From NCBI GenBank assembly GCA_950295325.1, contig OX485806.1, positions 7,628,001-7,692,000 of the forward strand: DNA of 64,000 nucleotides. The letters run 5' to 3'. This DNA comes from Polytrichum commune. Lineage: Eukaryota; Streptophyta; Polytrichopsida; Polytrichales; Polytrichaceae. How positions within the stretch are numbered: position 1 is the first letter of the stretch; each line of letters begins with the position of its first letter. The notes beneath the pieces were generated by a model. The model did no database searches. It was not told the DNA's origin and saw nothing but the letters and a program-made list of their open reading frames with translations. The position numbers and the translations under genes are program-made. Below, one piece after another: positions 3,001-42,515 of the stretch.

Positions 3001-3088
3001 TGCAATACAATATGCCATGTCCATCCTCCTCCATAAAAGGAGGATTGAAAATCACCAACCGCTACCCCAAAATCTAGACCCTCCATAA
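2..3088 (+). pseudogene. LINE ORF2 C-terminal part (linker, MTase-like, RNase H, Zn knuckle, REL), one in-frame stop
   Basis: The frame is open from base 2, is interrupted once by TGA at 794-796, and continues to the TAA ending at 3088. The stop lies between linker and MTase-like segment and is one C-to-T step from CGA. RNase H catalytic residues are visible: D in YYTDGS (about 1635), E in RVEMMA (about 1770), D in FTDSLN (about 1846) and D in NIDGNEKAD (about 2006). A zinc knuckle CSIC...H...C with the downstream RHNKAV follows at about 2415-2520. The C-terminal endonuclease shows FRPDI, IEFSYCND and K..KY at about 2680-2850, the PD-(D/E)XK pattern of R2-like elements. The segment at about 1000-1300 (QFYSPYSRD, FGSLGKAF, W.G.GYAHP, IIISPD.DWY) resembles the Dam/PCIF1 methyltransferase fold, but the (N/D)PP(Y/F) catalytic motif reads AHPH. 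That last assignment is inference. Confidence 0.8.
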
Positions 3089-14459: not shown

Positions 14460-16505
14460 ATGCCGTTTGCTAAAACGGCGTTTGCTTACACGACGTTAGT
14501 ATACAATTTGGGCACCTTCGTTTCCACATTGGACAATGAAGACGTGAGCATATACGGGGAGCTGCAGTCCACTCAATCCACGCTGCTGTTCGGAGTGCCC
14601 CAGCGCATTGAGCAACCGGATTGGAAGGTGGAGTACCGGGCTAATTTCGGGGAGGAGATTGTGGAGGTGGTGAGAAGCATATGTGAGAAGACGAAGCAGG
14701 TGAGCAAGAATTGCACAGCGGTGGATTACGCAACCTTCTTCAACGCACCGGGGGAGAAAGCCTTGTATTTAGAATGTAAAATTTCCTCGCACCATGAGTT
14801 ATTGAATAGAGAAGAGTATCACCATCAGCATAAGGAGAGTAATAAGGAGCTTGTTGTTACAACTACATCCGAATTATCTAAGAGACAACAACATCATCAC
14901 GGGGGGGTTATGTGCAATGATGATGTTGCTGCTGCTGGGATTTCGAAATTGGTGGTGGTGCGCACAGAGCCCAATTTGAAGGCCAGTATGGAAGGGTTGC
15001 TAATTTTGGGACAACATCAAAACAAGGCTAATTCGGTGGCTACTACTACCACCACAGGAGGCAGTGGACAGGAGGAAGGGACTGAAATCTCCACACAAAA
15101 TGCAAGTGCTTCAAATAGCAAAGAGCTGATTGAATCTTCCCCTGCTACTACTACTGCGAGGGTTGGCGTTGTTGAGAATTCTTCTGTGAGGGCTGCCGGG
15201 GCTGGGTTATCATCTGCAAACAATCCGACTGAATGTTGTCTTCGAATGGAAGGCATGCGGAGGAAGAGGCAAGCGGTGGCTGCGGAGCCGGAGGAGCTTG
15301 TGGGACAAACCAAGCCATGTCCCACATGTTGCTCTGAAGAAACCAAATTCAAGTATTACAACAACAAAAAAGTGGATCAACCGCGGTATCAATGCTTAAG
15401 GTGCAAGATTTTCTTCACCCATGGTGGCAAGAAGGCACTCTTACGTGGCGGCACTACCACGACCACCACCACCACGACCACCACCACCACTGAAGCATCA
15501 GGTTCCCCACTCAATTACCTCACCCAGCCTCAAATTACACCTGAAATTTCCAATCCTTCTTCGGAGCAAACTCATCAACACCATCATCACCATCATCATC
15601 AGGAGAAGGGTAAGGGAGTGGAAGAAGCAACCAGGAAGAGGAAAGCTCAGGAACCGCCTCACCTTGTGGGAGTTGATAAGGTTTGCAGATTCTGTTTGTC
15701 AACGAGGGCGGTGTTCAAGTATTTGAACAATGGGCGTGAGGATCAGCCCAGGTACAGGTGCTTGGATTGCAAAGAGTATTTTCAGTTTCCAGGGAAGAGG
15801 TTAGGCCCCAGACGACGGAATTATGGGCACAACAACACGGAGGATACAAATTCTCTCAACAATGCAAGGGAGGCAACTTCGATGGCAAGTGTTGGAAAGC
15901 AAAGAGGAAAGAGACCACCTTTGGAGCCTGCCCCCCTTGTTGGATTGCTGAAACCATGCCCCGTGTGTGGGAACTTGAACACAAAGTTTTTGTACTTGAA
16001 CATGGGGCAACCGAGATATGAGTGTTCCTATTGCCAACATTCTTTCACGTTTCGGAGCAAACTCGTTGCGATGAATTCTGATGTGCCTGAGACTGGGAGT
16101 GATGTGGTAGTCTCAAAATTGCGTAATACCATGGACACAGTGGAAGGTGCAAAGGAAGAAGAGTCATGTGGCCCTCTTGATGAAATAGACAATGATAAGA
16201 AGAAGGAGGGTGAAGAACAGGAGGCGATGATGATGGCACATACTTTGGTGATTGAAGAAGAGGGTGATGATGATGATGATGTCAAGGGCTATGTCTCGGA
16301 CGCTGATGAAGCTCACAAAGTTTCTTTTCCAGTGGCAGCAGCTCTGGAAAAGAAGCATGGCAACCTTTCAGAATCATGCAACTCTGAGATTCATCGAGAG
16401 CCTGGTGAACCCACCGTGCAATCGGTGGACAAAAGCAACGATCCAGGTTACAAGGTTCTGGGCGGACAAGCAATTGGTGAGCCAACAAGAGGGTCGGAGA
16501 CGTAG
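14460..16505 (+). CDS. Protein with three Dof-like zinc fingers (putative transcription factor)
   Basis: This is a single 681-residue frame from ATG at 14460 to TAG at 16503-16505. Finger 1 has C287, C290, C312 and C315; finger 2 has C409, C412, C434 and C437. Both match the Dof spacing CX2CX21CX2C and contain K(F)KY.NN...DQPRY. Finger 3 (C500, C503, C522, C525) is three residues shorter (CX2CX18CX2C) but keeps NTKFLYLN and QPRYEC. Each finger is preceded by LVG-x-x-K and an upstream basic patch (RRKRQ, RKRK, RGKRP), so a whole module was triplicated. The usual Dof RYWT is missing in all three (IFFT, YFQF, SFTF). Low-complexity runs of Thr (about 15450-15490), His (about 15577-15600) and Asp/Glu flank the fingers. 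The first 110 residues are not recognised. Nuclear DNA binding is inferred. A second frame overlaps the 3' end (16252-16722). Confidence 0.75.
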   Translation: MPFAKTAFAYTTLVYNLGTFVSTLDNEDVSIYGELQSTQSTLLFGVPQRIEQPDWKVEYRANFGEEIVEVVRSICEKTKQVSKNCTAVDYATFFNAPGEKALYLECKISSHHELLNREEYHHQHKESNKELVVTTTSELSKRQQHHHGGVMCNDDVAAAGISKLVVVRTEPNLKASMEGLLILGQHQNKANSVATTTTTGGSGQEEGTEISTQNASASNSKELIESSPATTTARVGVVENSSVRAAGAGLSSANNPTECCLRMEGMRRKRQAVAAEPEELVGQTKPCPTCCSEETKFKYYNNKKVDQPRYQCLRCKIFFTHGGKKALLRGGTTTTTTTTTTTTTEASGSPLNYLTQPQITPEISNPSSEQTHQHHHHHHHQEKGKGVEEATRKRKAQEPPHLVGVDKVCRFCLSTRAVFKYLNNGREDQPRYRCLDCKEYFQFPGKRLGPRRRNYGHNNTEDTNSLNNAREATSMASVGKQRGKRPPLEPAPLVGLLKPCPVCGNLNTKFLYLNMGQPRYECSYCQHSFTFRSKLVAMNSDVPETGSDVVVSKLRNTMDTVEGAKEEESCGPLDEIDNDKKKEGEEQEAMMMAHTLVIEEEGDDDDDVKGYVSDADEAHKVSFPVAAALEKKHGNLSESCNSEIHREPGEPTVQSVDKSNDPGYKVLGGQAIGEPTRGSET

Positions 16506-19500: not shown

Positions 19501-20140
19501 AACTCCAACCAAAATTCCGTATGAATGAAAGGATAACGCTAATATGTGGAAAATCTTTCTTTGACAACCTATAGAAGGTGATGAGATTCAAGGAACTTAG
19601 GTTCACCTACTTGTTGGTTAATAAAAGGTGTTAGTCTTTCTTCAGGTGACCACAAATGCTTGTGGGCATTCCCAACTCTCCATTTTGGCCATTGTGGATT
19701 TTTTTGGCCATTGGATTGGCTTGGGAAATGTTTGATTTGGTTAGCAATTGCAATCATGAATCACAAAGATTGGCATTTTCAAATTTCAGATTTTGATATG
19801 AGGTTTCTTTTTAAAATTTAAATTGCTATGTAACAATCATGTTTATGTATAGGATATCCATGTCCTTGAGCTCTAGGTTGAAATATTTACAAAATAACAC
19901 CTTGGCAAAAGTTATAAGAGTCCCAAGTGGATATTTTCTTACTCTTTGAATGATCACATAGATAGGCCTTCCCAATCATGTCCACTATTGAACTTGGAAT
20001 GGTGTCTCAAACGTTGCCTCACTACTTATTGAGCACACCGTCCAATCTCAATACAACACATATCTCTTAAGTGTCGATTCTTAGCCCTTGATGGACATGG
20101 GGTGTGTTTATACGGAATGCGTGATAAATTGTACAACTCT
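16506..20140. other. Likely 3' UTR of the Dof gene, then unresolved or intergenic sequence
   Basis: Several frames of 60-125 residues occur at 17.6-18.7 kb with plausible splice-like borders (for example CAAG|GTACAT near 17682), so additional exons or a separate transcript are possible. None of the peptides resembles a family I recognise. From about 18.7 to 20.1 kb I see nothing. Confidence 0.35.
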
Positions 20141-20249
20141 TTGTCGTGTAAACTAAGATCGTTAAACACAACGGATCGAGTGTCGTCATCAACATCAATT
20201 AGCAAAATAAACATAGCAAACTAATATGCTAAACAACCACCTCTTCAAG
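20141..20249. repeat. 109-bp direct repeat R1, left of the 3' LTR
   Basis: It is identical to 20683-20791 apart from one base (G/A near 20174). The two copies flank the 431-bp LTR almost exactly, with one extra base on each side. R2 is internal to the retroelement (between integrase gene and LTR), while R1 lies outside it. The arrangement is not the usual 4-6 bp target duplication. Confidence 0.85.
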
Positions 20250-20250
20250 A

Positions 20251-20681
20251 TGAGGGTTTCTCTCTCCAAGCTCAAGAAACTAAGAAGTCTCCTTACAAAG
20301 CTTAAGAAACTCTGAAATTCACACACAAGAGTCAAGCTATCTCTTACTCCACGAAGGGAGAATCCAAGAGTGCAAGTGATGGAGAAAGAATGCAAAGGCT
20401 TTATTCATGATCTACTATACCATAGCCATAAGATAGCAACAACAAGCTCTCTCTCTCTCAGAACACACTCACAAGACTTGACTTGACAACAATGGCAAGT
20501 CAAGATGCCTTCCTCTCCACATAACCCCAATCCTATGTGGATTTCAACTATGGAGTGGATGAACAACTAACTAGGACTCCCAATGGAGTCCATAATCCAT
20601 CCAAACACACATGGACGCCTAATGGAGTCCATTTACTCCTAATTTGACGTGACTTAGCCCCCGATGTCGCCTCACGTGACA
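20251..20681 (-). repeat. 3' LTR (left copy)
   Basis: 431 bp, read on the minus strand as TGTCACGTGAGG...AAACCCTCA, with TG/CA termini. It matches the right copy except for 8 substitutions and a 2-bp indel. It contains a (CT)n tract around 20446-20458. Confidence 0.92.
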
Positions 20682-20682
20682 G

Positions 20683-20791
20683 TTGTCGTGTAAACTAAGA
20701 TCGTTAAACACAACAGATCGAGTGTCGTCATCAACATCAATTAGCAAAATAAACATAGCAAACTAATATGCTAAACAACCACCTCTTCAAG
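20683..20791. repeat. 109-bp direct repeat R2, inside the element next to the 3' LTR
   Basis: Partner of 20141-20249. On the minus strand it follows a purine-rich run (CTAGGGGGG at about 20793-20801) that looks like a polypurine tract, yet the LTR as defined by pairwise comparison starts 109 bases further on. Confidence 0.85.
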
Positions 20792-21115
20792 TGCCCCCCT
20801 AGCAGATAGGGAGCCCCTCCAATTGGCTAGGAACAAACACACTCATCGGTAGAGGTGTTGAACATGATGAAGTTGTTGCTACATCTGTACATATCCAATT
20901 GGGTAGTGGTAATCTAAGGAATTAAATTCATGGTTGAGGAAGTAACCCAAGAACTGTAGGCTGGGTGCAATGTGAGCCCCATCCTTAATCGCCTTCAACA
21001 ATTTATGTTGAATTATTTGATAACTCTCCCAATGTGATTTTCAATCCCATAAAACTTCCGACCAACTAGATAACAACTTCACCACTAAGACATGTGGCAA
21101 ACATCCACAAAGTCC
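20792..21115. other. Retroelement 3' untranslated region
   Basis: Minus-strand sequence between the integrase/PHD stop and the R2 repeat. Non-coding apart from a possible polypurine tract near 20793-20801. Confidence 0.5.
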
Positions 21116-22399
21116 CTAATCATGACCATTAACGGCCATGGAATGGGAGGTTTTCCGACAACGAGGACAAACCCAATTGCCAGAAGGAAGACTAAAAAGG
21201 GGAGGTGTCAAACATGCCATGTGCCATCCACGTTGACAATGGTCGCACAATAACATCGTTGCAGCTCCTTTCTTCTCTCCACACACATAACAAGACAGAC
21301 CCTGTGGTATAACCGCCAACTCGGGATGCACAGAGCCGTCGATGGGAAGGTGACATGGAGCACAATTCTTTGAATGCTCACGACATTCCCGTCCATCCTT
21401 GTCTTCAAGCAATAATATACCACTTGGTACAACATCTTTTACCCGTAAAATTGTGCGCCCAGCCTTGACATCCATTGTCGTAGGCGCCTCCCGTTGCAAG
21501 TAAACATAACCTCCCTTGGAAAATCTACAAACCTGAGGTCGATAAGCTCCACTGCGGATCCAGACATACCGTAATGTATCACGATATTGAGCTATGTTTA
21601 AGTTCTCCATGGCCATAGACATGGCCTTTTGAAAGAATTCTGCTCGGTCATGAAGATATTGAGCCCAAACATCTGGATCATCCAAGTCTACCACATGAGC
21701 CAATTTCTCTCGCACAGAGCTAGGTAAAATTGGTTCCCGTCCATACAAGAGTTGGTAAGGACTATAGGATGCCAAAGATGCTTGCCTGTTGAAACGGTAA
21801 CCAATTGCTATCCATGGTAGCATCAAGTCCCAATCGCGATGGTTGCCATGAAACAACCCATACTTCCGCAAACCGCGCTTGACAGTCTGAACAACTCCTT
21901 CAGCTAAGCCATCCGCCTCAGGGTGATCTCTGGAAGTTGTTCGATGATCAATCAAAGCCTTAGTACACAAAGCCTCGAATGATCCAAGAAATTCTCTCCC
22001 TTGATCCGTCAACACCTCTGCAGGTGCTCCAAACCGTGCCAAAACTCGATCAAGAAATGCCATAGCCGCCAATTCTGAGGAATTTTGGGGAAGAGCCACG
22101 AGTTCAATCCAATTATTAAAATGGTCCACCATCACAAGTACATACTTTGCCCCACGTGGAGTGATAGTAAGCGGTCCGGCAAAATCCAAAGACCAACGAT
22201 ATCCCAAGCCCATAATAGGTGAAGGCTGAAGTTGAGGTGATAAAGTATTAAAGCTTGACCTGACCCGGTCACATACTTCACACCTAGAAACATAAGTGGC
22301 AACTTGTTGATACATCCCAGTCCACCAATATTGGTTGCGCAACATAGAGTGTGTCATTCGCACTCCAAAATGTCCAAGCTCCTCGTGCACTTGCTGCAC
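21116..22399 (-). CDS. Integrase with C-terminal PHD finger (end of gypsy Pol)
   Basis: The 427-residue frame shows the integrase zinc-binding H/H...CEVC region near the N-terminus and the catalytic core with D in WSLDFAG, D in LTDQGREF and E in ADGLAEGVVQ. At residues 370-414 a complete C4HC3 PHD finger is present: C370, C373, C385, C388, H393, C396, C411 and C414, with the conserved tryptophan two residues before C411 (NWVC). PHD fingers commonly read the histone H3 tail. Here it takes the place where chromoviral integrases carry a chromodomain, so a role in choosing insertion sites is the natural inference. The frame is in phase with the upstream Pol frame and is separated from it only by TGA at 22442-22444. 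Confidence 0.9.
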   Translation of the reverse strand: MQQVHEELGHFGVRMTHSMLRNQYWWTGMYQQVATYVSRCEVCDRVRSSFNTLSPQLQPSPIMGLGYRWSLDFAGPLTITPRGAKYVLVMVDHFNNWIELVALPQNSSELAAMAFLDRVLARFGAPAEVLTDQGREFLGSFEALCTKALIDHRTTSRDHPEADGLAEGVVQTVKRGLRKYGLFHGNHRDWDLMLPWIAIGYRFNRQASLASYSPYQLLYGREPILPSSVREKLAHVVDLDDPDVWAQYLHDRAEFFQKAMSMAMENLNIAQYRDTLRYVWIRSGAYRPQVCRFSKGGYVYLQREAPTTMDVKAGRTILRVKDVVPSGILLLEDKDGRECREHSKNCAPCHLPIDGSVHPELAVIPQGLSCYVCGEKKGAATMLLCDHCQRGWHMACLTPPLFSLPSGNWVCPRCRKTSHSMAVNGHD

Positions 22400-22441
22400 T
22401 AAAGAAGCTCTTTGACATGGCCTTGGAACGATGCGCCTCGT

Positions 22442-24616
22442 TCAGTTTGCCCACACACGAAATAACAAGCCGTTTGCCCAACGAAACCTTGTTATTCGAT
22501 GGCTAACTCTATTTCGCTCCATAGCAGATAGTCCAAGAGGAAATATCCCTTGTTAAAGTTTGTGCAAGACCGCCTGGTCTTCCCACACATCACTAACAAC
22601 AATAGATTTATCAACCTCCTCATCTTGTTCTTCCACAAGGATCTCAGCAGGCAATCCCGACATCATTGTGAGATATGTGGCAGCATGCCAACCCGACACT
22701 GCCTCACAATCACAATCTCCATGCCACCTGGCTCCAGTTAAATCCTCATCTGAAGGACTTGGATTGCGAGACAATCCATCTGCATCCAAGTTGACAATTC
22801 CTGCTCGGTGAACAACTTCAAAGTCATATTCTTGAAGTAATAATGCCCACCTAGCAAGTTTTCCGGTGAATTTATCTGATTCTATAAGCCATTTTAAAGG
22901 CTGATGATCAGTCACCAAAGTAAATTTTTGCCCATACAAATAAGGCCGAAAATGTGCAATAGCCCAAACGGCCGCCAAGGCCTTGCCTTCATAAGAAGAA
23001 TAATTAGATTCAGCATTATTATTGCTTCTAGATGCATAAGCCACCACATATTCTTTGCCCTTTTCATCTTTCTGTGTCAATACCGCTCCCAACCCCACTG
23101 CACTCCAATCCGTGTGCAATTGAAAAGCTCTAGACACATCCGGGCGTCGAAGCACTGGCGCTGAACCGAGCCTCTGCTTCAATGTATCAAATGCTTGTTG
23201 TTGTTCCCGACTCCAAATTCATGGTTGGTCTTTCTCCGTGAGAATGGTGAGAGGTTTGGCAATCAAACTAAAGTTTTTGACAAACCTTCTATAATAATTT
23301 GCCAATCCTAGAAATGCCCGAAGTCGTGGTACATCACTAAATGCGGGAATTTTGTGCAAAACATCCACCTTCGTCTGTTGCACACCAAGACCGCCAGGAA
23401 CAATCATGTGGCCTAAATAGGGCAATTGATCATGGAAAAACTTACATTTGTCATGATGTAATCGGAGTCCCCACCGTTGTAGTCGTTTAAATACCGCTTG
23501 CAAATGTCTCACATGATCCTGTGGACTATTACTAAAGATGATAACATCATCAATGTAACATCTAGCAAACGGTAAACCAGCCAATAATTGGTCCATCACC
23601 CGCTGAAATTCAGCTGGTGTATTCTTAAGACCAAATGGCAAAAATTTCCAATGATAAAGTTGATCCTTGCTATCTTTATCAATTCCCCAAAATGCGGTCT
23701 TCACCTGATCACCCAACAACAAAGGTAATTGATGATAACCAGATCTCAAATCCAAAGTGCTGAAGATTCTAGCAAATCCCAGTGCATCAAATAACTCCTC
23801 TGGCATCGGCATTGGATATCGATCCGACTTGGTCTTGCGGTTGACTGGACGATAATCACCACACATCCGTTTTTCCGTCCAATTGCCAAAGATATCTTTT
23901 TTTGAAGGCATAACCGTGGCACAAACATATTCTCCATTGGAGAGTTCGATCAATCCCGCTGCCAATAATTTTTGACATCGAGTTTGAACACCCAACCTTT
24001 CAGATGTACTAAGTCTGTACGGTCGTCTGAAAATAGGATGGTCGTCCTCAAATTAAATACGAACAGATTTACTTTTATATCCTTCAACATCCTGAAGACT
24101 AAAGGCAAAACAATTATGGTAAGAGCGAATAAATGCTTCGACACCAGTAAGTTTTGGCCCCACTTCAATTGGCCAATCGTCAAGTTCCGTGGTTTCCTTC
24201 TTCATAGAAGGATTGCCACTTGGTGCCAGCACAGCCTGTGATTGCTAGTCCGTGGAGAGGGCAACACCTTTGCCTCCATCATCTGTACTTGAATCTAAAT
24301 GCGTATCCTCTCCACTACAATCAGTTTGTGTAGCTAAATAGCTACCCACATATGAAGTATCACCAAGAAATAGAAGTGGAAACATTTTATGTGCCTCCAA
24401 CTTCCCAAAATCTTGGGCCAAAGCTGAAAAAACACGTTGGACTCGAAACTCTTCCGCAACCTGTTATTTCAAAGAAAATAATCCCTCGGTGTCATTGACC
24501 TCCATGTGATCCTTGGATTGCGGCTCCATTGCCCCCTGACCATTGTTCTCTGTCCTCAGAGGAAGAAATTGGTCATCCATACGTTGTTGAGCAGCAAGAC
24601 AAATTCCAATTATTCA
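22442..24616 (-). pseudogene. Gypsy reverse transcriptase and RNase H (Pol), interrupted by stops
   Basis: RT motifs are clear: STLDLRSGYHQ, LPFGLKNTPAEFQ and CYIDDVIIFSN with the catalytic YIDD, then FLGLANYYRRFV. RNase H has D in LHTDWSA, E in YEGKALAAVW, D in TDHQPLKWL and D in NLDADGLS. The frame continues unshifted from the methyltransferase but is cut by TGA 24614-24616, TAA 24464-24466, TAG 24245-24247, TAA 24053-24055, TGA 23219-23221, TAA 22553-22555 and TGA 22442-22444. There is no frame change across this entire stretch. The copy cannot produce full-length Pol without suppression. Confidence 0.9.
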
Positions 24617-25560
24617 CACAATGCTATTGAGATCCATAGCTTGTCCCAATAGGAAACGTCTCTGACCTTCCTGAAACTCATGAGCAGCCGTGGTGCATGT
24701 AGGAAAACCCATGGCTTGTTCCCGCTCATCTGCCGTAGGCTCATCATGAGTTTGGAATTTTAAATCCCAAACCATGTCTGGTCCACGTGATCGAAATGCA
24801 AAAGACCGTGGATATGTTACAAAAGTAGGTAGTGCACTTCTCGGAATTCCCACCTTGTTAATTAATGGAAATGGCAAGGTATCATCCTTGGTAACTGCCA
24901 AAGAAACACGATGAACATCTAGAATGTCATCCACCTTGCGATTCATAAGGCGGGGAATGCAGGCGATCGCCGCTGAAAGCACCGGAGGTGATACCAAATT
25001 GGTCCAAAACCAACGAGGCCGATGAGCAAAGGATCCCAAGGATGCAGCATCCAGAAATGTTGGAGTACCCAGAATTTGGTTAATGTACTCACCATCCTTC
25101 ACCACTTTGTACCGTGTATCACCCAATAATGGCACATTTTCAAAAATGTACCCTGGCGGAGTTGATTGGTGGGTAAACCACCATTGTGTCAATCGTATCA
25201 AATCCGCGAACAAACTAGACCTAGGATCATCCAAACCCTGGCCAGTTCCTGCCCGTGAATGGCCTTGACAAGGCCATCCTGCAATAATTAAATTCACGTG
25301 GCCCAATCTTCTCAAATCATCATCACTAATCATAGTGACATCTTGACGAAGTTGACCACAACATCCAAGAATGGCAGAGGCTGACAATTGTGCGGGGTAC
25401 TTCAACAGCAATTGTTGAATGTGGTGTCGGACGGCTCTGTTGGCTGCATATCCATTCTCCACATGAATATATCGCCTAACTGTAATCCCAGCCTCCAACA
25501 CTGCCGCCAAACCTGTGCCAATGCCCCAAAGATTTCTACAAGGACAATACCTTCAGGTGG
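24614..25560 (-). pseudogene. Cytosine-C5 DNA methyltransferase domain inside gypsy Pol
   Basis: The motifs follow the canonical order I-IV-VI-VIII-IX-X, not the rearranged order of plant DRM enzymes. Motif I (IVLVEIFG, then GIGTGLAAVLEAG in the next frame) is split by a one-base deficit in a G run at about 25525-25528. Downstream come RYIHVEN (motif II), AGWPCQGHS with the catalytic Cys at about 25268-25270 (motif IV), FENVP (motif VI), HRPRWFWTN (motif VIII), DEREQAMGFP (motif IX) and LLGQAMD (motif X). The region between VIII and IX is short (about 100 residues), implying a small target-recognition domain. It sits between protease and RT in one continuous Pol frame, so it would be released with or fused to Pol. 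All catalytic motifs after the frameshift look intact. Confidence 0.9.
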
Positions 25561-26972
25561 TGGTTGCCAATGAATGGGTTGAATAAAAGAAAATGAGGAT
25601 GACGTTGGAGGTGTATCTCCAAGCCCCAAATCCACTACAATGTGTCGACAATGGTCGGATAACTCCTTAGGGGTACGCCATGGTGGAGGTGGATCCTTGA
25701 AATGTCTAGCAGGGATTTGTAAAGATGGCAAAATTTGTTGTTCTGCTGCATTACAAACGTAGTCCAATGTTTCCTCCAACAAAACTGGAGCACAAGGCAA
25801 TCCACAACTGAACCGCTACAACCAAACATTGCCTCTGCAACCATAGTCATAGAAGTAGCTGCAAATGCTACATGAATAAATACCTTCCTACCATCTCCAG
25901 AAGACCATCCCGGTCTAATCCATGTCTCTTCAGTCCAATTATCCAAACCCAAGCCAAGTGGATAAAGAGCTTGCTGACCAACAAGTATATCATAGTTGGT
26001 AGCATTAGTAACAACACACTTCATTGACAAATGAGTGTATGTAGGTCCTGCCCCCACATTAGAAATCAAACGTAGAGGTGCCTTGGTGTAACATGTTACA
26101 CGTTCAGTGCCCCCTACTGAAGTTACAATTGTGAATGGACAAGAATCTAAGTTTGTTGGCATCAATCCAAGACTGTCAGCAAGTCCTTTGCCAACTATAA
26201 CCGGTTGAGCACCGAAATCCATCATTACTCTCAGTGGTGTAGCACGAATAGTAGGAATATCCACGCGTGAAACGACAAACAAAGATTTGTCGTTCATCAG
26301 CCGTACAACTCCAGGTTGCAAATTATGCCGCTCGCAAGCAGGCCTTGCAGAAATATCTACAAGATATGCCGCTCCCGCCGCATAATTCGAAAATGACGTG
26401 TCCACTGCTGAAATTGTTGATGGAGGAATATCAGTGTGTTTACCAAAAGAAATGATCGCCGCATCCGCAAGGCCCGCTCGCAAATTGGCTAAGTCCTCCA
26501 CCTCCTCAGCCACAGGTACGTCAACAACAGCTTGGGATACTTGAAGGGATGGCAAATCCGCCTTACCTTCTAACATTTTCCCAGCTAAATGGAAAACTCC
26601 AGCAGGCTTGAAATCCGGAGCCATCAACTCCGAACCCGAGAAAATTGGCATATGAAGAATTTTATATGCCAATGTCTGCGTAACATCCTTCGAGATGGAA
26701 TCCCCATCTCTCAAAGGTACAAGGTTTTTAGCCCCAACAACAGTGGTGTCTACCAATCCAAATGAGAGAGGTAAATGTGTTTGACCAACTTGATCCGTTG
26801 GTCCGGCATGGCGAGGATGTGACACCTCGTTGCTACCACCACTTGTAGAAGCCACCGCATTTGCCAATGTTTGTGATCGAGTAGAAGCCGCAGCCACCAC
26901 CTCTCCAGATGTCCAAACATATACATGTCTGTGGTACTTTTGGGCCACCCCCTTTCGAGGGAGCCTAAAAGT
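25561..26972 (-). pseudogene. Gypsy protease and upstream Pol linker
   Basis: The long minus-strand frame ends in a retroviral-type aspartyl protease: LRVMMDFGAQPVIV with the catalytic Asp (DFGA in place of DTGA/DSGA), followed by YDILVGQQALYPLGL. A frameshift near 25790-25805 moves the reading to a frame continuing as ETLDYVCNAAEQQ and WRTPKELSDHCRHIVVDLG, which leads into the methyltransferase. The first 270 residues are not recognised. The frame begins in phase with gag once the 2.8-kb insertion is discounted. The F in the active-site triad may itself be a defect. Confidence 0.75.
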
Positions 26973-29759
26973 ATCACACAAGCCCTTCGGTGAAGGTGGC
27001 CTGCATTTGCAGGCGCCCAAGCCGAACCCGGATGATAGGTGTATAACGTGAGTAGTTAGATTTTTAAGGGAGATTAAATATGCGTCGTAGTACCTCCGGA
27101 GGTTAGGCCTTAGTTTTTTACTAGTGTGGCTTTAAACTCCACTAACCAATTTCATATCTAGTTCTAACCTTAACCTACAACCTATTCTACGCGCAGACGC
27201 ACCAGCCTTGAAACCAAGGCAATCCTAATTTGTGAATTGGGATGGTTCTGATACACCCAACCGGGTGTGACTCATACCACCCTAACTCAACGAACGGAAT
27301 AACGACAATTTGATGGACCATTCAATTCTTCCTATTTCTTTATTTAGTTCTATTTAGTTTTCTAAGCGGGGGAACTTGGCCTAAGTCCCATCCTTCACAC
27401 AAATTCCTTCTTAATTACTTACTTTTGTTTGCACGTCCTAACTCACTACATTAACATATTAGGCATCACCCCTTACCTCGGGTCTCTTGCCAACAAGGGT
27501 TTACGATTTATTTTGTATGTTTTGATTGTTAAATGTGTTTACACTGGATAGACCACGAAATGCAACTCAATGGGACCAGGGTGACGGGCGACCTGTAGGT
27601 TCAACCTGTTGCGCAATCTTCATAAATTGGGGCCATTACTCCCAATCTATGGGGCCAACAACATAATAGTGGATTCGCGGGTCATTAACCCCACCTTTCC
27701 ACCAACAACATTCAGAGTGGTCGTGTCGGTGATTAATCCGACTTACCACACACGAAACTTGCTAATAAATGAAGCTACTACCATAAAACATACCAAGGGC
27801 CCCGAAAACAATGGAATTGGGTACTCCCTTGGCGGTCAAGTAGTCAAGCCACTGACCTTACGAGATAGGTGAGTGGGTTTAGAAATGCGTACCTTAGCCG
27901 TGCTCCCTCCAATCCTAAATGGAAGGCTTAAAGTTAGTTAATTTACCTCAATTTTCCTCGGTTGATTTGGGCTTGATGTAGGCCGAGCCGCTAACTCCTT
28001 CCTTGCTCCACTTTCCGAGCGTCGACCTTGCCTCCTTCTTTGTAACTAGTTTGGTAGTAAGCGTACCTTAGTTAACAATTAAAATATAAAGTGTTATTCT
28101 GCCCTGTAATTTAATCCTAAGCATAATATTTATACTTAGTGCACCAAATTATCTTTCCAATGATCTAAAAATCACTCTAATCGGATAAGAAATGCAAAAG
28201 TTATGAGGGTTGGAAGTGTGAGGTCGATTCAACCGACCCTTCCAACCCACCTATCTACCTTCTAACTTCAAAAATTCATAGCACATTCCTTACTACTTGG
28301 ATCTAGGCTTTCCTTATACCATTGGAAAGCTATGAACAAGCTCTAACTAGAAAAATTATGACATCAGCAGGTTAAGCTAATAGAAATTCAGCGGACTCCT
28401 TGTAACACAGCAGTCAATCAAGAAGGCTTAAACTATGTATCTCGCCTTCAACAATTCATATCTAATTCAAATCTTAGTCAAATCAAACGTTCTATATGAC
28501 CCTGGAGAGATATTAAAAATATGTATTTGATAAAAATATGTGATTAGAAAGGTAAGCCGAAGTGAACCCAGCAGGTCCTCTGTAATGCAGCAGTCAACCA
28601 AAAGTTCTCAAACTATGTGTCCCATCTTGCACAATTCATATCTAATTCAAATCATGCTCAAATCAAATGTTCTAAGCCATTTTGGAAAGCTACACAAAAG
28701 TTCTACTTGGGAAAAATATAATTTCTTGGAATTAAAATTCCTATTGGGCTCGCAGGTCTGATCCAGCAGCCGCTACCCACAAGACCACCCAGTTTTTCTA
28801 CTCCATCTTTGAAAATCCATAACTAATTGTCATCTCAACCAAATCACAAATGGGAAACGGCTATGGATAGCTATATGAAATCTCTCTAAGAGAAAAATAA
28901 TAAGTATCTTGTTCTAGCTTTTGAACTAAGCCTTCAGGGCATTGGCAGATGAGGTCTATAATGCCTCTACTCAAAACTCTACCATCCAACCTACCTCTAC
29001 AAAAGAAGGAATAATTTTGTTGGTGTGTTAATAAACACACAACCTAACTAGGAGAGAGAGAGTAGAGGAGGTTCTCAAGCCTTTCTTCTAGACCATTGAG
29101 AATACATGCTAAAGGATTTTTTTCCTAACTACATTGAAGCAGGGCTTCGCCCAAAAACTAGAGAAAGAGAGAGAGCTACAAGGTGGAAGGAGGGGTTTTT
29201 AAACCCTCTCACAAAAGGGTTGGACCCCTCCTCCACCGGATCCATTTTTCAAACCCTTTCCCGAAATTTTGGCTCGGGGGTTTTCCCGGTTGAGGTTGCC
29301 ACCCTCTCGCCGAGGTGGCTCCGACAAAAAACCTTTAGAAATCTTTCTAATTTTTCCGCCATCGAGTTGGCAAGGGGGCAAGTGGGCAAGTATCCCCCTT
29401 GCTCTCTTTCTTTTTTGTCTTCAAAATTCTTCACGCCGATTTTATCTTCTTACGTAAAACACCTCCAATAGTCTTGTGTGCCTCACACTAACTAATAAAC
29501 TAACACTTGCTTAGCTAGCATCTACTAACATTTGCTTAATAACTAGCATCTACTAATATTTGCTTAATAACTAGCATCTACTAATATTTGCTTAGCTAGT
29601 TGTTTTTACTAGCTAGCACATTTTTTCTACTTTGCTATCTTCTAGCACTACTTAGTTTCATTTTGACCTTCCTTCTTCTAGGCTAAATGCTAAATGAACT
29701 AATTTTTCCTAAATTCCCTATCAATTCTAACTTTTAATGCTAACATTCTAACTAAAAGT
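26965..29759. mobile_element. 2.8-kb non-coding insertion within gag-pol, flanked by 8-bp direct repeats
   Basis: CTAAAAGT occurs at 26965-26972 and 29752-29759. Removing the sequence between them plus one repeat (2,787 bp, a multiple of three) puts the gag and protease frames into one continuous frame across the junction, which supports a simple insertion with an 8-bp target duplication. Such a length is typical of hAT transposons, but I find no matching terminal inverted repeats. The insert contains no recognisable protein. It has diverged tandem units at about 28150-28910 (ATTCATATCTAATTCAAATC and TTGGAAAGCTA recur) and a short CTAGCATCTACTAA repeat at 29515-29600. Confidence 0.6.
28150..28910. 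repeat. Diverged tandem repeats of about 170-200 bp
   Basis: Four units share the order GCAGT/CAGCAG, a TATGT..C.CATCTT phrase, AATTCATA.CTAATTC, TCAAATCA and GGAAAGCTA. Units begin near 28150, 28370, 28555 and 28745. They are diverged by perhaps a third and do not encode protein. Confidence 0.55.
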
Positions 29760-31211
29760 GATCCCGCAGAGTGGTGGACCACTCAAAGGGTTCACAATGT
29801 CCGAACCCGTGGTGCCACCACCCGCATGCGGCTCAGAAATTTGAGCAAAAGATGCAGAAGATTTGAGCTTTTGTTCAAGCTCTGCCACCTTAGCCTCAAG
29901 ACTCTGCTCCCTTGGAGATTTGCTAGTGACATAACTGGCAGGCCGCATCTCAGGATGAAGTTAGAAACAATGATCCACATCGTGATTAGTGCCACCACAA
30001 TGGTTACATTTCAATTGTCTCTTCTTAGAATTGTCCCCTGCCTTTACTGGTTCTATCTTTTGTTTTAATTTTCCCAAATTCTGGGTTTTCTTCTTCTTAG
30101 GACAATTGGGATCATTCTTCGAATAACCAGCTTCTCCACAACCCCAACAATGCAAAATCTTTTTCTCCTTAACGGTTTGAATCTCAGCTAAACTACTAGT
30201 AGCTATGACAATTCTTCTTGATTTCGTACTCTCTGTCATCCAAGATACCATGTCTGTGGCATCGTGTTGACAGAGAGCCCGATCACATCTCTCAACCACG
30301 GCAAACGCTTGTGCAAGCGTAGCTCTGCCTTCGTAGTCGAGGATAATCCGAGGTGATGCCAACTCAAGTAACCGCTTGTCAATCTTAGACAAAAAGATTT
30401 TGACAAGCTGACTCTCAGCAAAAACACCTCCCGACTCAACAGCAAAGCGTGCGAGTCGCATATACATGGTCCGTGGAGTGTCATCCTTATCTCGGCGGAA
30501 ATCCTGAATGCGCTGCATCTGGTCTCGCCGAAATCCACCATACTCCACCTCCAAATGTGCGACAAATTCAGCAAGGGGATTAAATGGAGGTGGTGGACCA
30601 ACAGCCGTCAATGCTGCCTGTGTAGCACGTGCCATCCGTGAAAGGGTAGCCGTGCTACTGCCAGCCACTATTGGCCCAAGTGTCAGTTCTTTGTCCTTAG
30701 ACTCCTCCGGTGGATCCTCCTCCTTTAAGGTGGGTGGAGCTAAGGTGGCAATCGCCCCATCTTTAAGGGCTGAAATAAGCTCAACCCGGGCCTCCCAATA
30801 CTGCTCCACCTCCCGAAGTTGTCGTTGATGACCCTCTGTCCAGCGTTCATAAGTTTGGAGTGCCTCATACTCCAAATGTTGAGGCAGAAGTTCAAAGGCA
30901 TACCGATCATTGAAATTGGAAGACCTTTGACGTTTCTCCTTAATCCAGGTACGAAACCGAAGTTTCCAATCGGGCAAGGAAATGCCCCCAGCTCGACCTG
31001 AAAACCGATCACGCATTGAACCGTGGTGATCGTCCTCCATTTCGTCGAACGTGCCGACTCTCCAAATCCGAAGCCTACTAGTAGTGTCCAACGCCGAAAT
31101 AGGCTCAAAAGCCTCGTTGGTATCTACCTCTGGCTCAAGATTTGTGGTATGCATGTCCTCCAAGTAATCTGGTGATGGAGATCGATAATATCGGCTCCTA
31201 GTTTGCACCAT
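29748..31211 (-). pseudogene. Gypsy gag with two zinc knuckles, one in-frame stop
   Basis: The frame starts at ATG 31211 (MVQTRSRYYRSPSPDY) and contains a capsid-like region with a VEYGGFRRDQMQRIQDFR segment. Two C-terminal knuckles follow: CWGCGEAGYSKNDPNC, where the usual His is lost, and a canonical CNHCGGTNHDVDHC. A TAA at 29961-29963 follows immediately. The same frame then continues as LHPEMRPASYVTS and a heptad-rich SLEAKVAELEQKLKSSA segment likely to form a coiled coil, ending at 29748 in the insertion. The TAA is one C-to-T step from CAA. Confidence 0.85.
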
Positions 31212-32249
31212 AAAATAATCACTTGAGAACCTGCAACTATCTACAAGGTAATGGCAACCTGCACCTGTTGCGGGCTATCTAAATGGCAATCCCTTGCCAA
31301 ATGCCAAGTGTTTATTTATGCCCCCAGAATTCCAAAATTGTGCAAAGGTTTCGAGATTGGTAATTAAAATACAAAAATCAGCGTTAAAAATGCTAATTTC
31401 CAAGGTGATTATGGACTCCAATCAACAAACTAATTGCACCAATGGACTTCTAGGAAGATTTCACACAAATTAGGCTCAAATTTCACTCCGTTCGGAGTTA
31501 ATTTGCTCCCAAAAACAAAAATCAGCGTTGAAATTAATAATTTCAGCAATGATTTTGAATTCCAATCAACAATCCAATTACACCATTGGATTCCTTGGCA
31601 AATTTCACACAAGATAGGCTCAAATTTCACTCCAATCGGAGCTAGTATGCCCCCAAATTTGAACCTCAAAGTTTGTGAGAATTGAATGCCAAGTTTGAAA
31701 GGTGAAAGTAAAAATGTGAAAATAAAAAATAAAAATAAAAATAATTTTTTTATTAAAAAAAAAGAAAAACCAAAACCAACAATTTTTTTTTTTAAAAAGA
31801 AGAAGTAAGGAGGCTTACCTGGGGCCCGGCTGGCGCCGCCCGCCCGCCCCCGGTGTCTGCCTGGAGCTCCTGGAGCTCCAGGAGAGTCTGGTGAGCTCCG
31901 GATCCGTCTGGAGCTCAAAAAATTAAAAACAAATCGGATTTTTATTTTTATTTTTGTTGTGTTTGTTTTAAAAGGAAAAAAATTAAACTTTGCTTCCACA
32001 ATTTGCAAGCAAGAAAGATGTGACTTGAGATTCCATTTGGTCTCAAGATTCAACCATCAACAATTCAAGAAAACACAAAGAGACACCAAAAGAGAAATGT
32101 GGAGATTTTTCTCAAAATCTTCTTCAGGGTTGCAAGGAATTGCAAACTAAGTTTTCATACACTTGTATCACTCATTTGTTCCCACTACTGGGCCATTCTA
32201 GCTCAGAAGTACAACCAAAAATGAAAAATAAGCGAATTGTTGTCAAGTA
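31212..32249 (-). other. Retroelement 5' leader (LTR to gag), with GC-rich GAGCTC block
   Basis: This leader precedes gag on the minus strand. A sharply GC-rich block at about 31815-31920 carries several GAGCTC/CTGGAGCTCC repeats that could fold, in otherwise A/T-rich DNA. Two copies of a phrase beginning AAAAATCAGCGTT and ending in TTCACTCC occur at about 31370-31500 and 31515-31640. No convincing primer-binding site for initiator Met-tRNA directly abuts the LTR. Confidence 0.5.
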
Positions 32250-32678
32250 CGAGGGTTTCTCTCTCCAAGCTCAAGAAACTAAGAAGTCTCCTTACAAAGC
32301 TTAAGAAACTCTGAAATTCACACACAAGAGTCAAGCTATCTCTCACTCCACGAAGGGAGAATCCAAGAGTGCAAGTGATGGAGAAAGGATGCAAAGGCTT
32401 TACTCATGATCTACTACACCATAGCCATAAGATAGCAACAACTAGCTCTCTCTCTCTCAACACACTCACAAGACTTGACTTGACAACAATGGCAAGTCAA
32501 GATGCCTTCCTCTCCACATAACCCCAATCCTATGTGGATTTCATCCATGGAGTGGATGAACAACTAACTAGGACTCCCAATGGAGTCCATAATCCATCCA
32601 AACACACATGGACGCCTAATGGAGTCCATTTACTCCTAATTTGACGTGACTTAGCCCCCGATGTCGCCTCACGTGACA
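32250..32678 (-). repeat. 5' LTR (right copy)
   Basis: 429 bp matching 20251-20681. The internal terminus has CG where the other copy has TG, so the terminal CA read on the minus strand is mutated to CG here. Confidence 0.92.
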
Positions 32679-33579
32679 TCTTGCAATATGTCATCTTGAG
32701 GCACAAAATGGGCCTCTTGGACCTGTGAAAGTTAACTACACACCTTTCCATATCCCACTAAAATATAAGATTCCAATTAAGAAGAGTGACCACATACTGC
32801 CTAATTACCTTCAAAGCTTATCACCACATTGGATTATAGTATAGAAAATTCTCCCCACCAAATTAACCATATTCTTATGTACATCAACTAACTACATACT
32901 AGCCTTCCTTTCATGGCACCCAATAGTAATTATATAAATATAGATATACACCTCATGGTACCAATGATATTTCTACACATATTGTGAGTTGTAAGTTGAA
33001 TCTTGATAGAGTAAACATACCCATTTGTGTTACCCCTCCAAATCTTAATACATAGAGTCCCTAAAGCCTTGAAGTTTCACAAATGTAGCCGTCATTTTTT
33101 AACGTGATAAAAAAAGTCATGAAGAATCACACATGTAGAGTAGAGGCACCCATACTTGATCACTTAAGAGATTTTGCGCCAAATCTGGCGAAGTATAAGG
33201 TGGTGCAAATTTTTCCCATGTAGGAAGATAGAAAACAGGAGGACTGCAATTTTTCTGGTAATTTTATTCTTCAAATTGAAGTTATTGTGAACTTGGAAGC
33301 CAAAAGTTGGCCCAAACACATTACCAATGTCTAAAGTCCGTCATAACTGCTTGTTTTGAGACAAATTTTTGCTCACTCTAGCACTCTAGCACTCAAAACC
33401 GGGGACATGTGTCATGAAACTATCGATTCCATGGTGACATCATAACCAAAGTTGAAGACTTAGGGTTAGTTTCCATGTAGGTTGCTTCACATACTAGGTT
33501 ATTGGGAAAATGTAGAATGCACTTGGTGACACCTACATTTCCACTAGAATATAGTGTGTCATGGTATACGGCATCAGTG
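32679..33579. other. Intergenic, nothing recognised
   Basis: AT-rich DNA outside the 5' LTR. A phrase with AAGAAGAGTGACCACATA near 32778 recurs at 8575. Confidence 0.4.
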
Positions 33580-33960
33580 GCTACACCTTATCCATGGGAT
33601 TTCATCCATTTAGATTTGGATGGATGAATCCTAGAATTTGGGGAGATGCTCCTAAGTGAGGAGCTTCCTCTTTGGCTTGGCATTCTTGCCAAGTCAAGCT
33701 TTATGACTGAGAGTGTGGAGAGAGCTTGTGTGAGGTGAAGATTGCATGTTTTTGTAATAAATCTTGAGTTTTTTTCCCCTTACTTATACTGTTGGATTCT
33801 CCCGTGGTGAAGTGAGAGATAACTTGACTCATTGTGTACATTTGAAGAGAGAATTAGAGCTCTTGCAAGGGTTTGACTCTCTTCTTTTTCACTTGGCTAG
33901 AATCTTTCATTTTTTTTTCTTTTCTTCTTCATTCTTGAGATATAACACGAAAAAAGGCGT
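33580..33960 (+). repeat. Diverged related LTR in opposite orientation
   Basis: Read on the plus strand this contains CATTCTTGCCAAGTCAAG, GAGAGTGTGGAGAGAG, TTGGATTCTCCCGTGGTGAA and GAGAGATAACTTGACTC, in the same order as the minus-strand gypsy LTR. Overall identity is clearly lower than between the two LTRs of the complete element. No partner is visible, so it is either a solo LTR or a truncated element. Confidence 0.65.
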
Positions 33961-40443: not shown

Positions 40444-42515
40444 CTCCCTCCGTCTCAGAATAATATCGTGATTTGCTTAATTTGGCTGTTTTAAGGCCAG
40501 TTTGTCTCCACACTTTGTAACACGCTTTTAATGCTGACGCAACAGATCTTGGACACCTGTCTGTCTTCTGCACCAACACTTTCTGCACCAACACTGCACC
40601 GCATCAACTATGCACTGCACCGCACCGACTGTTGGAGGATGTCAGCTAGCTTGTGGACGGTGAAGGAGCTAGCTCACTGATCGATTGAAGATTCCATTAA
40701 AGATTCAATTTCTAGCATAGAAGAACCTGAGGTACGTGCTTGCATTCGCCATTGTGGTGCTGATCAATTCCATTCGCGCTTGCATTCGCCATTGTCTCCA
40801 TGGAGGCTAATGCGAGACGAAAGCCCAATCTGACCAACACCCAGCGTCGTGCTGTCATTGAATTCCTTCTATCACGGGTCCGGAACCCGGACGACCCCGC
40901 CAAGTTGGTTCATGGCACTTTGAAAGAAGCTGCGATCCGCTTCGAAGTTACCAGTGAGACCATTTCCCAAATTTGGCGCCGCGCTTTGCAATCCAAGGAG
41001 AGTGGCAGCGAGGCTATGGACGTTTCATCACGAATGGCTGGCCGTGTTGGGCGCAAGAAGAAGGAATTCGACATTGATGCTCTCAAGGCTATCCCATTCA
41101 GACAGCGTAGGAACATGCGATCAATAGCAGCCGCCATGGGTACATCGAAAGACACAGTTCAACGAGCTGTGAAGGCAGGACTTCTCGAGCCACACACGAA
41201 CGCCATCAAGCCGTATCTAACTGATGCTAACAAGGTGAATCGAGTCAAGTTTTGCCTGTCCATGCTCGACCATGACAATCCGGCCCAATTTCAGGACATG
41301 ATGAATACCATCCACATTGACGAAAAGTGGTTTTACATCACGGAGCAAACATCCCGTTTCTATCTAGCACCAGGCGAAGAACCTCCACAACGCACCTGCA
41401 AAAGCAAGCGGTTCACAACGAAGGTGATGTTTATGGCCACTGTCGCTGTCCCCCGATTTGATACGGGCCGCAACTGTGCATTCGATGGTAAGATTGGTAT
41501 ATTTCCATTCATATTCCAGGAGCCCGCGAAAAGGAGCAGCAAAAACAGGCAGGCTGGGACATTAGAGACGAAGTGCATTACGTCCATTGATAAATTTGAG
41601 ACACGGAAGATGTTATCAAAGCAAGTCTTGCCGGTAATTCGGGCTACATGGCCACTGGCGTGGGAGGGGCAGAAGACGAGCGATGTTATCATACAGCTTG
41701 ACAACGCCAAGCCACATGTGCTCAATGATGATCCCAATCTGGCCGTTGATTTGGTTCAGGACGGCATGACGATGAAACTGATGAACCAACCACCAAATAG
41801 TCCCGACATGAACGTGTTGGATCTTGGATTCTTCCGCGCGATTCAGTCCCTCCAACATCAACAACACATGTCGGGGATCGATGATCTAATTGCTGCCACC
41901 AAGAAAGCATATCAAGACCTGCCGGTTGAAAAACTAACCAATATATTCCTCACTTGGCAGCAGTGCATGATTGAGGTCATCAAGCTCAACGGTGACAACA
42001 AATACAAGGTTCCACATATTGGCAAGGACGGTTTGCGACGACGAAGCACATTGCCGTCCAGTCTGGTGTGTCCTGATGAAGTTCGCTTGCAAGGATTCAA
42101 TTTTGTTAATGAATTGGAGTAAAACACATCTTGGTTTTATTGGTGATCAATGTTCAAGGTTTTCAAGGAGGATTGTCGTGTCCTTGGTGTGATCTGTCTC
42201 TCTATGAGTGCATTGTTTCTCTAATGTTTGTGATTTGTAATTGAGGGTTTGGGTTACTAGGTGGATGGTAGACCTGGTTTTCTGGTGGCCATCTTCATGC
42301 ATGTAGTTGTTTTGACATGTGGTTGGAGCCGTAGTGGCAGTAAAGGGAAAGTAGAGCCAGCCTAGTTCAAGAAGCAGCAAGGAACTTACAAGGTCCTTTT
42401 TGCGCACGCCTTTGACTTGTCATTTATTGTGAAACAACCTTTTTTAGCAAATCAAGGTATTTTTTTGAGACAGATTTTTCAAGCAAATCACGATATTATT
42501 CTGAGACAGAGGGAG
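40444..42515 (+). mobile_element. Plant mariner-like element (Tc1/mariner), autonomous and apparently intact
   Basis: Terminal inverted repeats of about 35 bp begin CTCCCTCCGTCTCAG at 40444 and end CTGAGACAGAGGGAG at 42515, with one mismatch in the outer 15 bases. Both sides are bordered by the TA target duplication (40442-40443 and 42516-42517). The CTCCCTCCGT start is that of Stowaway MITEs and plant mariners such as Osmar. Near the right end, part of the terminal sequence (TTTTGAGACAG, AGCAAATCA) is repeated once internally. The element carries one uninterrupted transposase gene. Confidence 0.95.
40800..42122 (+). CDS. Mariner-like (DD39D) transposase
   Basis: An uninterrupted 440-residue frame, about the length expected for plant mariner transposases. 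The N-terminus has a helix-turn-helix region (residues about 15-65) and a second one around RNMRSIAAAMGTSKDTVQRA. The catalytic triad is visible: D in IHIDEKWFY, D in VIIQLDNAKPH and D in PPNSPDMNVLDLGFF, consistent with the plant-specific DD39D arrangement. It catalyses cut-and-paste transposition in the nucleus on the element's own inverted repeats. No stop or frameshift is present, and flanking TIRs and TA duplication are preserved, so the element may be active or recently active. ATG 40800 is the first in frame and gives the full N-terminal domain. Confidence 0.95.
   Translation: MEANARRKPNLTNTQRRAVIEFLLSRVRNPDDPAKLVHGTLKEAAIRFEVTSETISQIWRRALQSKESGSEAMDVSSRMAGRVGRKKKEFDIDALKAIPFRQRRNMRSIAAAMGTSKDTVQRAVKAGLLEPHTNAIKPYLTDANKVNRVKFCLSMLDHDNPAQFQDMMNTIHIDEKWFYITEQTSRFYLAPGEEPPQRTCKSKRFTTKVMFMATVAVPRFDTGRNCAFDGKIGIFPFIFQEPAKRSSKNRQAGTLETKCITSIDKFETRKMLSKQVLPVIRATWPLAWEGQKTSDVIIQLDNAKPHVLNDDPNLAVDLVQDGMTMKLMNQPPNSPDMNVLDLGFFRAIQSLQHQQHMSGIDDLIAATKKAYQDLPVEKLTNIFLTWQQCMIEVIKLNGDNKYKVPHIGKDGLRRRSTLPSSLVCPDEVRLQGFNFVNELE

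Follow-up and report, generated by a model that had tools for sequence, protein, structure and literature searches.

What does a DNA methyltransferase do inside a retrotransposon, and since when has it been there? The question is raised by a stretch of 64,000 nucleotides from the moss Polytrichum commune (GenBank assembly GCA_950295325.1, contig OX485806.1, positions 7,628,001 to 7,692,000; here called the window), which contains, at 20142-32678 on the minus strand, a Ty3/gypsy element that is flanked by the target-site duplication AAGA and carries a C5-cytosine DNA methyltransferase (DNMT). We propose that this family acquired a Dnmt3-type DNMT in the distant past and has retained it as a functional part of the Gag-protease polyprotein, an explanation drawn from sequence comparison to which we assign a probability of roughly 0.55. 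The anatomy of the element, as described below, is nearly certain.

A preliminary description of the window, made from its letters, had placed a C5 DNMT from position 24614 onward and left the strand unstated. The domain is indeed located there, on the minus strand; the plus-strand translation over the region is riddled with stops. The open reading frame (ORF) 24614-25510, of 298 aa, matches Pfam PF00145 well above the cut-off (E=4.2e-11, 43 bits versus 22), which confirms that the domain is real, and its motifs IV (AGWPCQG), VI (FENV), VIII (AHRPR), IX (PTFVT) and X (LGQAMDL) follow each other in the canonical order already noted. In a PDB profile search and in fold comparison, DNMT3 was closer than DNMT1, DNMT2 or bacterial enzymes, metazoan DNMT3A and DNMT3B being the best profile and fold match across the catalytic domain at about 25% identity, and structure prediction returned a complete Dnmt3 fold at good confidence. 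The moss enzyme differs from DNMT3A and DNMT3B in motif IV, which reads PCQ instead of PCN, and in that Pfam detected neither an ADD nor a PWWP domain in ORF1 of the element, a PHD finger being encoded in the other ORF. The phage family PHROG 116 also scored highly (86 bits) on the related protein P0001. This protein is labelled as stemming from a Candidatus Obscuribacterales bacterium metagenome-assembled genome, yet it shares 73% identity with the moss element and probably represents plant DNA in that assembly.

A one-off insertion is excluded by the number of copies. Searches of the genome (407.8 Mb, 64 contigs, seven of them large, as would suit the n=7 of Polytrichaceae) yielded at least 132 matches at the protein level (132 of 557 candidates scored, every scored one a match) and at least 123 for the family (123 of 353 scored, again all matches), with DNMT-element matches on each of the seven large contigs. 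Of the 132 protein matches, the window copy aside, 128 show 82-91% identity and three show 62-63%, a split that indicates two subfamilies, about 62% identical to each other; subfamily 2 is better represented in the family search than in the protein search. Many rows of the protein search are decayed, with stops within the match or short frames. Ten copies picked for long frames, out of 18 such rows in the family search, served as open copies, and the order protease (PR), DNMT, reverse transcriptase (RT) is intact in all of them.

It is these open copies that reveal where the enzyme is encoded. In 10/10, Gag, a zinc knuckle, PR and DNMT form a single ORF1 of 1366-1386 aa (stop to stop) ending in TAG, and RT, RNase H (RH), integrase (IN) and the PHD finger continue after this TAG in the same frame, without a spacer or second frame between ORF1 and ORF2. 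DNMT corresponds to about residues 939-1264 of ORF1. ORF2 is open from the TAG for 1045-1048 aa in six copies, further interruptions being present in L014, L020, L024 and L026. As had been claimed, the enzyme is part of the element and not a flanking host gene. Its assignment to the Pol frame needs correction in one respect: the position in a Ty3/gypsy member, between PR and RT and in the frame of RT, stands, but the open copies encode DNMT together with Gag and PR ahead of the UAG and not on the RT side. Simple patterns recovered motifs I, IV (PC), VI (ENV), VIII, IX and X, unrearranged, in the ten open ORF1s (motif X was unmatched in L019), and the catalytic cysteine (PCQ) and glutamate (ENV) are kept in all ten.

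In subfamily 1 (six open copies plus the window copy) the TAG is followed by the hexamer CAATCA, and in the four open copies of subfamily 2 by CAATTA. TAG-CARYYA also occurs at the corresponding place in each of eight further copies (L001-L008), five of which have it in the frame of motif IV and two in a different frame, motif IV being unmatched in the remaining one, so that UAG-CARYYA is present in 19/19 copies inspected. On contig C1, among the matches listed, inspection by eye placed the stop motif at, or close to, the expected distance in 13 of 15 DNMT matches, and TAGCARYYA-N6-GTG was counted at 896 places in the genome versus 183 for a reversed control, a number to which other repeats contribute. 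UAG-CARYYA is the type I readthrough signal of tobamoviruses, where it likewise stands between a bulk protein and the polymerase (PMC5382211); in the moss element the UAG separates Gag-PR-DNMT from a retrotransposon RT, and readthrough is predicted from this context. As DNMT ends the Gag-PR ORF ahead of this leaky-type UAG, it should be produced at the dose of Gag, and we consider such dosing through readthrough probable.

In the 64-kb window, the following features were recognized:

20138..20141, unstranded: 4-bp target-site duplication on the 3' side of the element, AAGA in element orientation (by eye; partner of 32679-32682)
20142..20249, minus: terminal repeat B2, 3' end of the insert, terminating in CGACA (99% identity to B1; probe match)
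20250..20681, minus: terminal repeat A2 (97% identity to A1)
20684..20791, minus: repeat B1, directly after the polypurine tract (repeat comparison, probe match)
20792..20803, minus: polypurine tract adjoining B1, approximate limits (TAGGGGGGCA ahead of B1)
21116..22399, minus: integrase with H2C2 zinc-binding domain and rve core, C-terminal PHD finger at about 21158-21292 (Pfam PF17921, PF00665, PF00628, all above cut-off)
22553..23182, minus: RNase H (Pfam PF17917, PF17919)
23219..23995, minus: reverse transcriptase (Pfam PF00078, E=2.6e-31)
24239..24247, minus: UAG then CAATCA, the conserved leaky-type stop separating DNMT and RT (site and CARYYA context common to 10/10 open and 8/8 further copies)
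24614..25510, minus: C5-cytosine methyltransferase (Dnmt3 type), motifs IV-X (PF00145, E=4.2e-11; DNMT3 best by profile and fold)
25511..25590, minus: part of the methyltransferase with motif I, in another frame in the window copy (three-frame translation compared with open copies)
25965..26249, minus: aspartic protease, approximate limits (weak Pfam PF13975/PF13650, below cut-off)
26930..29796, unstranded: nested insertion of 2.87 kb between Gag and PR (alignment to copy L015; in the window copy only, among the copies aligned)
29961..31211, minus: Gag with zinc knuckle (ORF; weak zinc-finger match; the same ORF opens ORF1 of the open copies)
32234..32248, minus: presumed primer-binding site adjoining A1, approximate (position only)
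32249..32678, minus: terminal repeat A1, 5' end of the insert, starting with TGTCAC (repeat comparison, probe match)
32679..32682, unstranded: 4-bp target-site duplication on the 5' side, AAGA in element orientation (by eye)

The window copy is broken. Motif I is found near 25510-25590, beyond the 298-aa ORF and in a different frame, which means that the enzyme is frameshifted near this motif; several stops precede RT, and Gag is split from PR. The weak Pfam match for PR (17 bits) falls within ORF 25635-27020, the frame of which differs from that of RT in this copy, and the protease motif is DFGAQ here and DSGAQ in 10/10 open copies. The flanks of the nested insertion overlap by 5 bp, which may be a duplication, and a tandem repeat of about 99 bp (80%) lies inside it. 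Just beyond the element, at 33557-33890 on the plus strand, a lone subfamily-2 repeat A (84% identity) is found with no B match beside it within the window; it is perhaps the remnant of another insertion.

How does such an element integrate? Its Pol order is that of Ty3/gypsy, PR-RT-RH-IN, by Pfam and our own profiles in the window and open copies, and its integrase is of the DDE (rve) type with an H2C2 domain (PF00665 and PF17921 above cut-off; D, D and E motifs in all six open ORF2s read). Both ends were inspected in 21 copies, i.e., two sets of ten and the window copy. In the first set, all ten inserts start with TGTCAC, finish with CGACA and carry a 4-bp duplication; in the second, the duplication was found by script in seven of eight copies and by eye in the eighth (L053/L063), while the 3' end was unreadable in L046/L056 and L049/L059. 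Together with the window copy, read by eye, 19/19 resolved copies have 4-bp target-site duplications, within the 4-6 bp typical of Ty3/gypsy and combined with the TG...CA ends expected there. The 3' end is CGACA in 18 of them, L053/L063 terminating behind A2. The resolved inserts take the forms A-ORFs-B-A-B (14 copies, form I), A-ORFs-B (four copies: L009, L013, L023 and L052/L062, with no terminal repeat and both subfamilies represented) and A-ORFs-B-A plus five nucleotides of the presumed primer-binding site (one copy). Identical full long terminal repeats (LTRs) at both ends, as expected for Ty3/gypsy, occur in none of the 19.

A polypurine tract adjoins B1, also in the 7/7 form-I copies displayed, and the presumed primer-binding site adjoins A1, which implies that the conventional LTR is B-GC-A and that the integration cut falls inside it; the DDE integrase thus appears, from these sequences, to cut within the LTR. 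The joint ACGACA-GC-TGTCACG was found intact by script in 6/6 form-I copies, the window copy having AC instead of GC. Two copies have duplications within A that are common to A1 and A2, as expected if both are renewed together. Reverse transcription would accordingly be conventional and give complementary DNA (cDNA) of the form B-A-ORFs-B-A; end-joining would then create an A-B joint, probably in a circular or end-joined form, and cleavage by integrase at the palindromic left B-A joint ACGACA-GC-TGTCACG would result in A-ORFs-B-A-B.

The preliminary description had supposed that the phenomenon, described for charophytes and dinoflagellates, might extend to another lineage, and it does: besides the moss family, a search for proteins of polyprotein length (55 proteins) named 13 from Marchantia polymorpha and one from Sphagnum fallax, and another search named Sphagnum troendelagicum and S. 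jensenii among the best 120 of 135 proteins. The order in these relatives is PR-DNMT-RT-RH-IN, with PHD present or absent. A second order, RT-RH-DNMT-IN-PHD, is found in the environmental proteins P0164, P0168, P0169, P0171 and P0172, and P0179, which is without the RT part, is consistent with it. In a 54-row tree, the elements of the host moss, Sphagnum and Marchantia fall into one clade with environmental ones (99/98); within it, Sphagnum elements pair with those of Marchantia instead of those of the host moss, a topology suggesting old parallel lineages or transfer. The second-order group was obtained in the 19-row trees of RT (100/98) and DNMT (95/96) and was not recovered in the IN tree (15 rows), where most of the relevant forks are unresolved. 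Our reading, which is not proved, is that of a long shared descent during which DNMT changed position once. Two further observations concern environmental proteins: P0067, P0163, P0166, P0170 and their kin, possibly algal, share EHV in place of the ENV of motif VI, keep PCQ and are recovered together as a supported group, and P0174 (1337 aa) combines a C5 methyltransferase, RT and a Dam-type N6-adenine methyltransferase in one polyprotein.

The terminal order A-coding-B-A-B is shared with DIRS/PAT/TOC-type elements with split direct repeats. Those elements rely on a tyrosine recombinase and are not known to produce target-site duplications, whereas the moss element has an rve integrase and 4-bp duplications. 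Two DNMT-bearing retrotransposons, compared here by description, come closest (de Mendoza et al. 2018, PMC5890265). KnitGypsy-Dnmt3 of Klebsormidium nitens has Gypsy domains, a Dnmt3-type DNMT in the Pol region, DIRS-like terminal repeats and purifying selection on the DNMT; the moss family differs in its land-plant hosts, higher copy number, the leaky stop directly after DNMT, the PHD finger after integrase ('PHD' does not occur in the main text of PMC5890265) and, as set out above, the 4-bp duplications and the existence of repeat-less copies. No named K. nitens sequence was among the proteins returned (best 120 of 135; 55 of polyprotein length). SymbioDIRS-Dnmt3 of Symbiodinium, with CG activity demonstrated in yeast (PMC5890265), likewise has a Dnmt3-type DNMT in one ORF with RT; it is a DIRS element with tyrosine recombinase, in contrast to the DDE integrase and 4-bp duplications of the moss element. 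No title or abstract reporting a methyltransferase-bearing retrotransposon in a bryophyte was found in a literature search that left most subscription journals outside its coverage, so that no claim of absence from print is made. As far as that search reaches, the land-plant hosts, the leaky-type stop after the enzyme and the PHD finger are new, and so are the 4-bp duplications with intra-LTR ends, the repeat-less copies and the second domain order.

For the function of the enzyme, the following can be envisaged. Most ribosomes would halt at the UAG, giving particles with many Gag-PR-DNMT chains and few RT-IN chains, in which, or before integration, the enzyme would methylate new double-stranded cDNA, most likely at CG. 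Premethylated cDNA would pass for host DNA; alternatively, premethylation might give the copy a state that is inherited and tolerated at the site to which the PHD-bearing integrase delivers it. That cDNA methylation is the function has, in our estimate, an even chance. More tentatively, streptophyte Gypsy-DNMT elements may be one old lineage that couples a Gag-dosed Dnmt3 (leaky stop, cDNA premethylation) with a DDE integrase cutting circular or end-joined cDNA at an intra-LTR palindrome, so that new copies may lack terminal repeats.

Several alternatives have to be weighed against these proposals. In certain plant Gypsy elements (Ogre), splicing takes place between PR and RT, and the UAG might similarly be spliced out here, or RT might have its own start, in which case a leaky stop would not set the enzyme dose; a lone stop in the leaky context of plant viruses, kept in 19/19 copies with the frame open on both sides and neither spacer nor second frame, makes this quite improbable. 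The origin of the A-ORFs-B copies is evenly poised. Later recombination between B1 and B2, near-identical repeats of about 106 bp only about 440 bp apart (334 in subfamily 2), would retain the same target-site duplication; however, such copies make up 4/19 resolved ones, in both subfamilies and among copies selected for open frames, and integration of a one-LTR circle cut at its B-GC-A joint yields the same form. It is unlikely, though conceivable, that the enzyme methylates integrated family copies, leading to host silencing and less damage to the host instead of protecting or disguising cDNA. Many copies are decayed, as such self-restraint would have it, and de Mendoza et al. 2018 (PMC5890265) pointed out that slower transposition might benefit both host and element, but many insertions are recent, judging from A-A repeats that are 99-100% identical in 6/7 form-I copies (L019, with 94.6%, is the exception), and CpG-specific decay is not seen in the element. 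We likewise hold it unlikely that the domain has lost its DNA-methylating activity and serves some other purpose in the particle, e.g., nucleic-acid binding or RNA methylation. The catalytic residues kept in all open copies, the predicted Dnmt3 fold and a ratio of nonsynonymous to synonymous substitution rates (dN/dS) of 0.11 for DNMT between subfamilies argue against it, while the EHV of the environmental group mentioned above would fit.

Some of the findings weigh against our own proposals, and part of them favour a loss of methylation. The dS between subfamilies is near saturation, and within the young subfamily 1 the DNMT dN/dS is 0.73, compared with 0.26 for Gag and 0.27 for PR, albeit from few changes, so that constraint on the enzyme inside the youngest subfamily looks weak. 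For KnitGypsy-Dnmt3, no methylation was seen in yeast, a result that its authors call inconclusive (PMC5890265). The earlier suggestion of an element marking or masking copies of itself received no support from a search for a CpG-decay footprint: ORF1 CpG observed/expected values lie at 0.65-0.77 for six copies, compared with 0.51 for the window, and the A1/A2 differences comprise one CG and 15 CHH changes at equal per-site rates. A single ORF of 2318-2374 aa, lacking the stop, makes up each of the distant relatives P0151, P0159, P0160 and P0161, and the mirror insert A-B-A-ORFs-B, equally predicted by a simple two-LTR circle, occurs in 0/19 copies.

The surroundings of the element in the window include, on the plus strand, a host gene with three Dof zinc fingers at 14460-16505 (98% identity to an environmental protein, 35% to Ceratodon purpureus, the best named match, which points to a moss host), a 640-aa ORF with an RNase H domain at 1166-3088, probably part of a non-LTR element, and a 440-aa transposase-like ORF (DUF7769, helix-turn-helix) at 40800-42122.

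A high-copy moss family, with kin in Marchantia, a tractable laboratory plant, makes it possible to test why a transposon should carry the very type of enzyme by which transposons are silenced. The place of the enzyme before a leaky stop predicts a bulk and not a rare component of the particle. Integration ends within the LTR would, if true, represent a new mode of action of a retroviral-type integrase, and software that seeks LTR pairs would miss the copies that lack terminal repeats.
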